DNA from: Microvirga soli
Lineage (GTDB): Bacteria; Pseudomonadota; Alphaproteobacteria; Rhizobiales; Beijerinckiaceae
DNA: 64,000 nt
Direction of reading: 5' to 3'
NCBI RefSeq assembly: GCF_016734765.1
Contig: NZ_JAERQE010000002.1
Coordinates: forward strand, 186,001 to 250,000
Shown: positions 53,234-56,210 of the stretch, piece by piece
How the letters are laid out: each line of letters begins with the position of its first letter
Numbering within the stretch: position 1 is the stretch's first letter
The notes under the pieces: model-generated
Seen by the model: the letters and a program-made list of their open reading frames with translations, nothing else
Database searches by the model: none
What the model was told of the DNA's origin: nothing
Translations under genes and position numbers: made by a program

Positions 53234-54352
53234 ATGATGAAAACCGAACAGATCGCTCTTGCTCCGCTGGCTCCCGGAGCCGACCTCTCTCTGACCGTTC
53301 AACGCTTCGGCCCCGAAGGCGCCCGTCCGCGCATCTATGTCCAGGCCTCGCTCCATGCGGACGAGATCCCCGGCATGATCGCAGCGCACCACCTGCGCGA
53401 GCGCCTTGTCGCGCTTGAGAACGAGGGCCGGATCAAGGGCGAGATCGTGCTCGTGCCCTCGGCCAATCCCATCGGCCTGGCGCAAAGGGTGCTGGGCGAC
53501 CATATCGGCCGCTTCAACCTGAGCGATGGCATCAACTTCAACCGGGGCTATCCCGACTTCGTGCCCAAGGTGGCAGAGCGTATCGACGGCAAGCTGACCG
53601 GCGACGGAGAGGCGAATGTACGCCTGATCCGCGAGGCTCTGCGGGCGGAATGTGAGGCCTGGCAGCCCGCCAACCCGGCCGAGGCGATGAAGAAGGCTCT
53701 GCTGGGCCTGGCGCAAGAGGCCGACATCGTGCTCGACATGCATTGCGACTCGGAAGCCGTCGTGCATCTCTACACCCATACCCGTTCGGATGAGGCGTTC
53801 GCGTCCCTCTCTGCGCTGATCGGCGCCCATGCCTATCTGCTTGCGGATATCTCGGGCGACGAGCCCTTCGACGAGGCCTGCAGCCGCCCCTGGGCGGAAC
53901 TGGCCGACCGCTTCCCGGATCACCCGATCCCCTTCGGCTGCCATTCCACGACCCTGGAGTTCCGGGGCGAGCGGGACGTGAGCCACGAGACGGGGCGGGC
54001 CGATGCGGCGGCCATGATCGATTATCTGATCCTGCGCGACGCCATCGCCGGTGAGGCTCCGCAGGTGCCGGAGGCCCTCTGTCGGGCCACGCCGCTGGCC
54101 GCCTCCGAGCCGGTTCAGGCGCCGGCCTACGGTATCCTGGTGTTCAAGGCAGATATCGGTGCGCGGGTGAAGGCTGGCGATGTGATCGCCGAGGTCATCG
54201 ATCCGCTGACGGGCGCCACCGTCGAGGCAAAGGCGCCCTGCGACGGCGTGATGTTCGCCCGGATCGCTCAGCGCTTTGTCACCAAAGGCATGCGGCTGGC
54301 CAAGATCGCCGGCACTGAAGCCAAGCGGACCGGCAAGCTGCTCAGCGCCTAA
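53234..54352 (+). CDS. Succinylglutamate desuccinylase/aspartoacylase-family metallohydrolase
   Basis: 372 residues. The zinc-binding HADEIPG (His...Glu), VLDMHCDSEAVVHLY with a further ligand and the catalytic Glu in TLEFRGERDVSH make it an M14-like deacylase. The last ~75 residues (GILVFKADIGARVKAGDVIA, APCDGVMFARIAQRFV) resemble a biotinyl/lipoyl-type hairpin that caps such enzymes. Substrates of relatives are N-acyl amino acids, ectoine derivatives or similar; the exact one is unknown. Either of two ATG codons at 53234/53237 may start it. Confidence 0.85.
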   Translation: MMKTEQIALAPLAPGADLSLTVQRFGPEGARPRIYVQASLHADEIPGMIAAHHLRERLVALENEGRIKGEIVLVPSANPIGLAQRVLGDHIGRFNLSDGINFNRGYPDFVPKVAERIDGKLTGDGEANVRLIREALRAECEAWQPANPAEAMKKALLGLAQEADIVLDMHCDSEAVVHLYTHTRSDEAFASLSALIGAHAYLLADISGDEPFDEACSRPWAELADRFPDHPIPFGCHSTTLEFRGERDVSHETGRADAAAMIDYLILRDAIAGEAPQVPEALCRATPLAASEPVQAPAYGILVFKADIGARVKAGDVIAEVIDPLTGATVEAKAPCDGVMFARIAQRFVTKGMRLAKIAGTEAKRTGKLLSA

Positions 54353-54360
54353 AAACAAGA

Positions 54361-54384
54361 AAGGCCGCCCTGGAGGGCGGCCTT
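54361..54384. terminator. Bidirectional terminator between the M14-like gene and the 24-codon ORF
   Basis: AAGGCCGCCC and GGGCGGCCTT pair around a 4-nt loop. On the minus strand it is followed by TCTTGTTTTT, a good tract; on the plus strand the T-run is short. It serves both the M14-like gene (plus) and the small ORF at 54431-54505 (minus). Confidence 0.85.
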
Positions 54385-54430
54385 TCCATTGTCGGTTCCA
54401 CGGCCCCGAAGAGCCGCCCTTAAAGGTGCG

Positions 54431-54505
54431 TTACGCACAAATCTCAGCAGAGGCCAAGATCCAGGTCGCGGCAACCGGGGAACGTAGGGTATGACAATGA
54501 GACAC
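54431..54505 (-). CDS. 24-residue ORF with an extended perfect Shine-Dalgarno (uncharacterised small gene)
   Basis: On the minus strand GAAAGGAGGTGATCCA precedes a GTG start at 54505, with 7 nt from AGGAGG to the GTG. The frame encodes MSHCHTLRSPVAATWILASA plus EICA and ends in TAA at 54431. A terminator follows 47 bp later, so it appears to be monocistronic. 17 nt (54505-54521) are perfectly complementary to the conserved 3' end of 16S rRNA, far more than an ordinary ribosome site. I do not recognise the peptide. It could be a leader-type peptide, a small regulatory RNA or a ribosome-binding RNA. No clear promoter was found upstream. Confidence 0.6.
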   Translation of the reverse strand: MSHCHTLRSPVAATWILASAEICA

Positions 54506-54521
54506 TGGATCACCTCCTTTC
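54505..54521 (+). other. Copy of the 16S rRNA 3'-terminal sequence
   Basis: CTGGATCACCTCCTTTC on the plus strand equals the conserved end of bacterial 16S rRNA, including the anti-Shine-Dalgarno. The bases before it do not match 16S rRNA, so it is not an rRNA gene. It lies about 105 bp upstream of prfC, and is the complement of the small ORF's ribosome site. Confidence 0.8.
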
Positions 54522-54537
54522 GTTGTTGACGGGAAAG

Positions 54538-54549
54538 CCCCATATGGGG
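54538..54549. promoter_or_regulatory. Perfect 12-bp palindrome upstream of prfC
   Basis: CCCCATATGGGG is self-complementary. It lies between the small minus-strand ORF and prfC and could be an operator for either. No regulator is evident. Confidence 0.35.
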
Positions 54550-54626
54550 TGAGAAGAGCCCAGCGAAAGGGCAGGGCGCTGCGGCGTTCTGTCTCCCACT
54601 TCGATCCCAGAGAATTTTTGAAACCC

Positions 54627-56210
54627 ATGACCGATCTTCCGGCCCCGGTGGGCCGCCGCCGAACCTTTGCGATCATCTCCCACCCGGACGCGGGCAAGAC
54701 CACGCTGACCGAGAAGCTGCTGCTTTTCGGAGGCGCGATCCAGCTTGCCGGCGAGGTGAAGGCCAAGAAGAACCGCGTCTCGACCCGGTCCGACTGGATG
54801 GGCATCGAGAAGGAGCGCGGCATCTCCGTGGTGACCTCGGTCATGACCTTCGAGTATGGCGACTGCGTCTTCAACTTGCTCGACACGCCGGGCCACGAGG
54901 ACTTCTCGGAAGACACCTATCGCACGCTGACCGCCGTCGATTCCGCCATCATGGTGATCGACGCGGCCAAGGGCATCGAGGCGCGCACCCGCAAGCTGTT
55001 CGAGGTGTGCCGCATGCGCGACATCCCGATCGTCACCTTCATCAACAAGATGGACCGCGAGGCGCGCAGCCCCTTCGACCTGCTCGACGAGATCGAGAAG
55101 ACGCTGGCGCTGGACACCGCACCCGTCACCTGGCCGATCAGCCAGGGCCGGAGCTTTGCCGGCACGTTTGACCTGCGCCGCAACGTCGTGCGCCGCATCG
55201 ACACCGACGAGGAGCCGACGCCCGTCTCCGGTCCCGAGGATCCGAAGCTGATGAGCCTGCTGCCGCCGGAAGAGGCGGATGCTTGGCAGGAGGAGGTGAT
55301 GCTCGCGCAGGAGGCCTGCAAGCCGTTCGATCTGGAGTCCTTCCGCGAAGGTCATCTCACGCCCGTGTTCTTCGGCTCGGCTTTGCGCAATTTCGGCGTG
55401 CGCGATCTTATCGATGCGCTGGCTGCTTACGCGCCGCCGCCGCGCGGCCAGGAGGCCGACAAGCGCCTTGTCGAGGCGGGCGAGCCCAAGATGTCGGGCT
55501 TCGTGTTCAAGATCCAGGCCAACATGGATCCGAACCACCGCGACCGCATCGCGTTCATGCGCATCTGCTCGGGCAAGCTCCAGCGCGGCATGAAGGCGAA
55601 GCTCGTGCGCACGGGCAAGCCCATGAGCCTGAACTCGCCGCAATTCTTCTTCGCGCAGGATCGTGCCATTGCGGACGAGGCATGGGCCGGCGACGTGGTG
55701 GGCATTCCCAACCACGGCACCTTGCGCATCGGCGATACGCTCACCGAGGGCGAGGACCTCGTGTTCCGCGGCGTGCCGAGCTTCGCGCCGGAAATCCTGC
55801 GCCGCATCAAGCTGCAGGATGCCATGAAGGCCAAGAAGCTGCGTGAGGCCCTGCAGCAGATGGCCGAGGAAGGCGTCGTGCAGCTCTTCGTGCCGCAGGA
55901 CGGCTCCGGCGCTATCGTGGGCGTCGTGGGCGCGCTGCAGCTCGACGTGCTGAAGGAGCGCTTGGCCGCCGAATACGGCCTGCCGATCGACTACGAGCCG
56001 ACGCGCTTCTCCATCTGCCGCTGGATCACGGCGGACGATCCGCGGGAGCTCGACAAGTTCATCGAGAGCCACCTGTCGTCCATGGCGCGGGATCTCGACG
56101 AAGCGCCCGTGTTCATGGCGGCAAACCAGTTCAACCTTCAATACGAGGTTGATCGCTACAAGGCGATCCAGTTCTCGGACGTGAAGGATTATCAGAAGAA
56201 GGCGGCTTAA
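54627..56210 (+). CDS. prfC: Peptide chain release factor 3
   Basis: 527 residues from ATG 54627, matching RF3 length. GTPase motifs: G1 SHPDAGKTTLTEKLL, G3 DTPGHEDFSEDTYR, G4 NKMDRE, with the switch segment VKAKKNRVSTRSDWMGIEKE. C-terminal domains II and III follow (GFVFKIQANMDPNHRDRIAF, VGALQLDVLKERLAAEYG). RF3 recycles RF1/RF2 from the ribosome after termination. The upstream leader contains the 16S 3'-end copy. A terminator overlaps the stop. Confidence 0.96.
   Translation: MTDLPAPVGRRRTFAIISHPDAGKTTLTEKLLLFGGAIQLAGEVKAKKNRVSTRSDWMGIEKERGISVVTSVMTFEYGDCVFNLLDTPGHEDFSEDTYRTLTAVDSAIMVIDAAKGIEARTRKLFEVCRMRDIPIVTFINKMDREARSPFDLLDEIEKTLALDTAPVTWPISQGRSFAGTFDLRRNVVRRIDTDEEPTPVSGPEDPKLMSLLPPEEADAWQEEVMLAQEACKPFDLESFREGHLTPVFFGSALRNFGVRDLIDALAAYAPPPRGQEADKRLVEAGEPKMSGFVFKIQANMDPNHRDRIAFMRICSGKLQRGMKAKLVRTGKPMSLNSPQFFFAQDRAIADEAWAGDVVGIPNHGTLRIGDTLTEGEDLVFRGVPSFAPEILRRIKLQDAMKAKKLREALQQMAEEGVVQLFVPQDGSGAIVGVVGALQLDVLKERLAAEYGLPIDYEPTRFSICRWITADDPRELDKFIESHLSSMARDLDEAPVFMAANQFNLQYEVDRYKAIQFSDVKDYQKKAA

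Follow-up and report, generated by a model that had tools for sequence, protein, structure and literature searches.

A CC2171-family small RNA of Microvirga soli with an extended Shine-Dalgarno sequence and a conserved short reading frame: a possible self-masked small mRNA

When the whole window, i.e. the 64,000 nucleotides of Microvirga soli DNA analysed here, was searched with cmscan, a single Rfam match was obtained, to the small RNA family CC2171 (RF01867), which lies on the minus strand at positions 54361–54528. The match covers the full length of the model (positions 1–159 of 159) and exceeds the gathering cut-off (80.5 bits versus 75; E 6.6e-15). The element is flanked by prfC (release factor 3), which is located upstream and is divergent, with its start at 54627 on the plus strand, and by an AstE/AspA-like gene, which is downstream and convergent (53234–54352, plus strand). 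Based upon the match search and comparison with other family loci, it contains an extended Shine-Dalgarno sequence, GAAAGGAGGUGAUCCAG, which is the complement of the 3' tail of 16S rRNA (54505–54521, minus strand), and this is followed by a short ORF made up of GTG, 23 further codons and TAA (VSHCHTLRSPVAATWILASAEICA; 54505 down to 54431) and by an intrinsic terminator, a hairpin of 13 pairs and then TGTTTTT (54387–54358), which begins 43 nt past the stop codon. An initial annotation, made from the letters of this stretch, had proposed a complementarity of 17 nt to the 16S 3' end, a 24-codon minus-strand frame from GTG to TAA and a strong terminator within ~50 bp, all three of which were borne out. 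No sigma-70-type promoter was found for the element by a simple scan. In an alignment of the upstream regions of 28 loci, however, the hexamer CATATG (54541–54546, minus strand) is kept in most of the genus and it is a candidate -10 element. Since the element carries a terminator of its own and the stretch upstream of it is kept in the genus, it has the appearance of an independent gene. A block GACAGAACGCCGCAGCG at 54577–54593, between the element and the divergent prfC, is also kept in most of the aligned loci of the genus, and it is possibly a regulator site or a part of the prfC promoter.

The family itself is already known and is said to originate in the work of Landt et al. in 2008. It is catalogued as an sRNA gene, whereas the element described here looks like a small mRNA; the two share the 5' motif, the terminal hairpin and the closing helix CAUUGUC/GACAAUG. 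In the main texts of open-licence papers, no description of the function of CC2171, of a conserved ORF or of complementarity to 16S rRNA was found. RF01867 is among the families that were given one additional covarying pair in Rfam 15 (PMC11701678, excerpt), and a homologue from Mesorhizobium huakuii appears in a table as a sequencing product of 215 nt (PMC5596092, excerpt). In the ribosome profiling of Caulobacter, the intergenic ncRNAs were untranslated apart from two exceptions from an earlier list (Schrader et al., 2014; PMC4117421), which counts against the mRNA reading proposed below unless CC2171 is one of the two.

The 17-mer GAAAGGAGGTGATCCAG at 54505–54521 (minus strand) is the sole match in the window even when three mismatches are allowed; at this threshold, shuffled sequences contained a mean of 0.13 matches and at least one match was present in 13 of 100 shuffles. 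The genome from which the window is derived has three occurrences of AAAGGAGGTGATC; one belongs to the element, another (L060) is the antisense of the 3' end of 16S, and the third (L061) is embedded in other sequence. The element and the 16S 3' end are identical over 17 nt, after which the two sequences diverge. Depending on where the mature 16S rRNA of this species ends, the outermost pairs of the predicted 17-nt pairing may not exist in vivo. The GTG codon at 54505 lies seven bases past GGAGG. Among aligned family members the invariant core of the site is approximately AAAGGAGGTGNTC, and the last two or three of the 17 bases vary, tending to follow the internal partner of the site that is considered below. 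The sequence AGGAGGTG[AG]TC is present in all 59 family loci that were the best-scoring covariance-model matches, and the predicted pairing of 75 sites with the 16S tail of this genome ranges from -24.8 to -31.0 kcal/mol. At the level of sequence, the element has a Shine-Dalgarno sequence that is complementary to the 16S tail over about 14–17 nt. The motif is identical to the 16S tail read in antisense, as would also be the case for a chance occurrence or a fragment of a 16S gene. However, the match stops at 17 nt, the element belongs to a curated RNA family and it is conserved across the class with compensatory changes; this explanation, which in our view has virtually no likelihood, is ruled out. 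The remaining site, on contig 55, is the only further AAAGGAGGTGATC outside 16S; it lies within an apparent coding region and overlaps a perfect GGAGGTGATCACCTCC palindrome.

Covariance-model searches of genomes, in which stricter filters were used and weak matches are lost, detected CC2171 at E≤0.001 in 48 of 61 genomes in the search of relatives (the source genome included) and in 61 of 289 class genomes, with the match over the cut-off in 24 and 10 genomes, respectively; among 14 control genomes, Caulobacter vibrioides alone gave a match. When a pattern consisting of the site plus the start, GAAAGGAGGTGRTCNNRTGTC, was used, 70 of the 385 genomes searched in the class and 71 of the 398 searched in the phylum had a match, usually one per genome. 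Among the genomes listed in the phylum search (by hand count, 135 of the class and 263 others), all 71 with the pattern were members of the class, and the reversed control pattern gave no match among those listed. In one genome, G072, the pattern occurs twice, its spacer bases differing between the two occurrences, which may point to duplication of the element in that lineage. The named pattern loci number at least 120, and among those listed 114 are from Alphaproteobacteria, three are from Pseudomonadota with no class given and the rest are one unranked Bosea record, one Paenibacillus and one Gemmatimonadota. Because the pattern demands RTGTC after the site, these loci provide no evidence for the start codon, for which the 59 covariance-model loci serve. 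A BLAST search of plasmids yielded only three records, with 60–80% identity. Up to 179 loci were available for comparison, and 176 were kept after three were left out as unrelated (L079, Paenibacillus; L099, Gemmatimonadota; L162, Azospirillum, with a 59-codon frame).

Based upon these comparisons, the ribosome site is predicted to pair with an internal segment that resembles the 16S tail. In the window this putative internal anti-Shine-Dalgarno, or partial copy of the 16S tail, is CCUGGAUCUUGGCCUCUG, at 54448–54465 (minus strand) within the ORF. The helix was examined in 41 thinned GTG-type sequences, using one alignment (A1) of 36 of them, from which L030, L076, L095, L150 and L181 were left out as poorly alignable, and a second (A2) of all 41, which covers both of the main helices and agrees with the first. 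In the 41 sequences 82.4% of cells were paired, versus 32–51% when the helix was slid, and there were eight compensatory cells; neither these cells nor the covariation score was reached by any of 500 shuffles. Pairs changed on both sides, which are the measure least inflated by relatedness, numbered three and were reached by 26 of 500 shuffles. With the 36 sequences, 84.8% of cells were paired, six cells were compensatory and the number of pairs changed on both sides was reached by 88 of 500 shuffles. A clear compensatory example is provided by L027, where GAUCCAG has become GAUCAAG and its partner CUGGAUC has become CUUGAUC. RNAalifold also picks this helix, unprompted, on 36 of the 41 sequences. 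In an alignment-free test, in which 145 elements were thinned to 67 and their sites were swapped, the pairing became worse (z -4.9; 0 of 5000); relative to the median swap, 38 of the 67 elements paired better with their own site and 12 paired worse. In 64 of the 140 elements with a recognised terminator, the internal segment outdid 95 or more of 100 shuffles. By group, five or fewer of 100 shuffles paired as well in 24/26 elements of the genus set, 14/28 of the other family loci, 10/30 from Hyphomicrobiales, 9/15 from Rhodobacterales, 3/3 from Rhodospirillales, 2/3 from Acetobacterales, 1/23 from Sphingomonadales, 0/3 from Caulobacterales, 0/1 from Hyphomonadales and 1/8 unplaced elements. In view of these counts, and of the 64 of 140 overall, the helix appears to hold in many members, with support in the GTG-type group, and is not established for the class as a whole.

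The sRNAs with anti-Shine-Dalgarno loops containing CCUCCUCCC are those of the alpha-r14/CcsR type; membership of the element among them was rejected, as CCUCCUCCC is absent from 54358–54560 on the minus strand. A related explanation is that the element is a dual-function or base-pairing sRNA, whose exposed GGAGG or internal anti-Shine-Dalgarno would pair in trans, e.g. with such anti-Shine-Dalgarno-loop sRNAs or with the ribosome sites of mRNAs, and whose translation would control its availability. The cataloguing of the family as an sRNA, the presence of a Shine-Dalgarno and in many members also of an anti-Shine-Dalgarno segment, and the existence of Rhizobiales sRNAs with CCUCCUCCC loops (PMC3927594, excerpt) are consistent with it. 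However, GAAA and GAUCC are part of the conserved stretch of the site, a feature in keeping with the 16S tail and not with CCUCCUCCC, and we consider this explanation to be unlikely.

The short ORF provides a different kind of evidence. In all 59 covariance-model loci a start codon is present at the same spacing from the site (GTG in 44, ATG in 15); 58 of them have a TCN codon next, and the ORF is 14–26 codons long. Since the frame of the element, according to the list of ORFs, is open much further upstream of the GTG, this start has been assigned by comparison and not from an upstream stop. The position of the stop was examined in 172 elements with 200 nt downstream, thinned to 75 that are mutually less than 70% similar, a step which lowers relatedness but does not remove it. 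The first in-frame stop was at codon 14–31 in all 75 elements, compared with a mean of 18.8 and a maximum of 29 of 75 by chance (300 dinucleotide shuffles); in the two other frames the corresponding numbers were 18 and 13. Where the stop is at a fixed codon its identity varies, being TGA in six, TAG in five and TAA in four of 15 elements of the Rhodobacterales-type group and TAA in 13 and TGA in 12 of 25 of the Sphingomonadales-type group. Additionally, of the 54 GTG-type elements (out of 88) that passed a pairing filter (z < -1.2, offset 25–60), 51 have the internal anti-Shine-Dalgarno in one phase relative to the start. The in-phase offsets were 32, 38, 41, 44, and 47, with 37 elements, mostly of one genus, at one distance. 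For the ATG-type elements no single phase was seen, the 12 of 52 that passed the filter being split 7, 4, and 1 over the three phases. As judged from these sequence comparisons, the start and the stop of the short ORF are kept in the family and the phase is kept in its GTG-type members, and on these evolutionary grounds the ORF is predicted, with strong support, to be translated. One outcome that the initial annotation had named as speaking against its proposal, a frame broken in close relatives together with a 17-nt segment that is not conserved, is contradicted. Its suggestion of a strongly translated small protein is upheld in part, in that a translated ORF is indicated by the retention of start, stop and GTG-type phase; the part concerning a protein was not supported, as is seen from the peptide.

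The selection on the peptide was estimated in five groups, which were chosen by regular expressions and from which only sequences of modal length were used. If the strong site served to drive an ordinary small protein gene, with a functional peptide of 24 residues and an RNA structure that merely tunes its expression, the conserved start and stop would be accounted for, and the pN/pS values of 0.61 in the genus (14 distinct sequences) and 0.69 in the Rhodobacterales-type group (15) point in the same direction. However, values of 1.31, 2.55, and 1.00 were obtained in the remaining groups, which have 23, 7, and 4 distinct sequences, respectively, and the value for the genus hardly differs from that of frame +1 (0.67); in comparison with the other frames, pN/pS of the coding frame is slightly lower in two groups and higher in three. 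Neither the two peptides that were tried against Pfam nor the three tried against NCBIfam gave a match, and where residues are conserved in a clade their codons are often those that form the RNA partner of the ribosome site (e.g. TGG ATC, TGT CAC CTC). By these estimates the peptide does not appear to be clearly conserved, lacking the purifying selection and the protein-family match that mark a small protein family. A functional peptide as the main constraint was rejected on the pN/pS of the five groups, and we regard the small protein gene as an improbable account of the element. A separate observation concerns the Rhodobacterales-type loci (e.g. L104 and L123), in which AGA and ATA codons are kept in many species (AGA GTG ATA TTG GAG AGA); such codons are expected to be rare in these GC-rich genomes.

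A second helix, also predicted by comparison, connects codons 2–5 with the bases just 5' of the terminator. In the window its 5' arm, UCAUUGUC, extends from the last base of codon 2 to the first base of codon 5 (54493–54500, minus strand) and its 3' arm is GACAAUGG (54386–54393, minus strand), immediately 5' of the terminator. In the 41 sequences 85.4% of cells in this long-range helix were paired, versus 20–58% when it was slid, and its 13 compensatory cells were reached by none of 500 shuffles; four of its eight pairs were changed on both sides, a number reached by 131 of 500. When the helix was taken together with its eight-pair extension, which was counted on the alignment of 36 sequences alone, 80.2% of cells were paired and there were 31 compensatory cells and 11 pairs changed on both sides (2 of 500). 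The swap test gave z -9.6 (0 of 5000), with an element's own arms better in 60 of 67. The clade-specific forms of the helix include CAUGGUU/GACCAUG, GUGAUU/AAUCAC, and UUGUCUC/GAGACAA. RNAalifold did not choose this helix. The structure line of the CC2171 Rfam model contains it and is without the SD:anti-SD helix.

The location of this helix directly 3' of the start codon, together with a conserved complementarity to the 16S tail of unusual length, would suit a non-coding decoy. Such an RNA would hold the 30S subunit by its extensive pairing with little translation taking place, and the helix at codons 2–5 would block accommodation. However, the position of the stop and the GTG-type phase would not be kept without translation, and a pure decoy would not be predicted to contain an internal masking partner, due to which this explanation also seems to have little probability. 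The initial annotation had also put forward a ribosome-titrating RNA, which the element may be.

The SD:anti-SD helix and the long-range helix, as predicted, cross each other, which suggests either a pseudoknot or a switch between two states. When folding was limited to pseudoknot-free structures, the state with the long-range helix was a median of 2.7 kcal/mol above the MFE and that with the SD:anti-SD helix was 10.8 kcal/mol above it; the latter value implies that masking of the site would be transient, pseudoknotted or dependent upon a factor. The rpsO/S15 leader and the SAM-II and preQ1-II riboswitches are Shine-Dalgarno-masking pseudoknots that act as cis regulators of a downstream gene. 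As in these, the ribosome site here is paired with a distal segment and crossing helices are possible; the element differs from them in ending in its own terminator. This resemblance, and a linker from the ribosome site to the second helix that is free of gaps in the alignments, could indicate an orphan riboswitch-like element, in which a ligand or a ribosomal protein binds the pseudoknot and controls the short ORF. However, there is no downstream gene to regulate here, and the anti-Shine-Dalgarno segment is better than shuffles in only 1 of 23 Sphingomonadales elements, and we view this explanation as highly improbable.

The genes surrounding the element differ between clades. After neighbouring ORFs that were found to be antisense frames were left out, prfC was a divergent neighbour in 26 of 179 loci, of which 25 were from the genus search and one was from Microvirga arabica (L180), which has the same neighbours as the window and a prfC that is 98.7% identical. 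Even within the genus, three loci (L006, L018, and L019) are without prfC in the flank that was fetched. The initial annotation had proposed examining synteny beside prfC, and the linkage was found in these 26 loci, all of the same genus, but other clades have different neighbours; a function linked to prfC in general was rejected on this basis. A Vut_1 transporter is upstream in 23 of 179 loci, the named ones mostly from Rhodobacterales, and an aminotransferase class IV gene lies 0.24–3 kb downstream in 13 of 179, the named ones from Sphingomonadales. A role as a leader of a neighbouring gene was likewise rejected, because the neighbours change between clades; moreover, the window contains no gene on the same strand directly 3' of the element, such as a leader or an attenuator would have, and the view of the initial annotation that the element does not lead the downstream gene, which is on the opposite strand, holds. 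As the neighbours differ from clade to clade, the element probably acts on its own.

The reading that we favor, at a probability of roughly 0.45, is that CC2171 is a self-masked, free-standing small mRNA which acts as a self-gated device for sensing or buffering free 30S subunits and in which the act of translating, rather than the peptide, is what matters. In such a scheme, the ribosome site of the nascent RNA would at first be masked by the internal 16S-tail copy. Once the 3' part is complete, codons 2–5 would pair downstream, giving either a pseudoknot or another fold in which the site is free. Strand displacement, beginning from the often unpaired GAAAG end, would then allow a 30S subunit to occupy the site, so that the real 16S tail would displace the internal copy and translation would disrupt both helices. 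Each successful initiation would be spent on a peptide of 14–31 codons with no fixed sequence, and the RNA would thereby respond to, and occupy, free initiation-competent 30S subunits. As the peptide is free to vary, we infer that the useful output would be ribosome occupancy, refolding of the RNA or its stability, rather than a protein; the sensing or buffering of free 30S subunits is likewise inferred. The main rivals of this self-masked mRNA are the plain small protein, the non-translated decoy and the base-pairing dual-function RNA. A bolder form of the proposal, that CC2171, with its full complement and its partial copy of the 16S tail, is a widespread alphaproteobacterial gauge of free ribosomes in which the internal copy and the real 16S tail are competitors for one site and translation of an ORF of irrelevant sequence is the read-out, is doubtful at present. 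It would give these bacteria a free-standing RNA device for sensing or buffering the pool of initiation-competent 30S subunits. A catalogued 'non-coding' RNA from many orders of the class looks like an mRNA with a kept ORF and an unkept peptide. If this is right, it offers a concrete RNA with which the reading of ribosome availability can be tested, and both the structure model of the family and its annotation would be corrected.

Two other systems may be compared with the element. Like it, rnTrpL-peTrpL of Sinorhizobium is an alphaproteobacterial small RNA with a short ORF, of 14 codons in that case, but rnTrpL is a leaderless trpE attenuator with a functional peptide, whereas the element has an extended Shine-Dalgarno sequence, no downstream gene on the same strand in the window and a peptide that does not appear conserved (PMC10117765, excerpt). 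The extended Shine-Dalgarno of Staphylococcus aureus shares with it a start-proximal pairing with the 16S tail beyond the core Shine-Dalgarno; it is found, however, in many mRNAs and involves two extra pairs in the solved structure, in contrast to the about 14–17 nt, usually once per genome, seen here (PMC13009471, excerpt). With regard to the layout of the RNA in other members, three loci of the same genus (L019, L022, and L028) have family matches of 215–278 nt instead of about 168, the extra sequence being located between the ORF and the terminator. A palindrome, CCCAAAAGTG...CACTTTTGGG, is present in the extra stretch of L019 and L028 and is suggestive of a repeat element inserted into the RNA gene.
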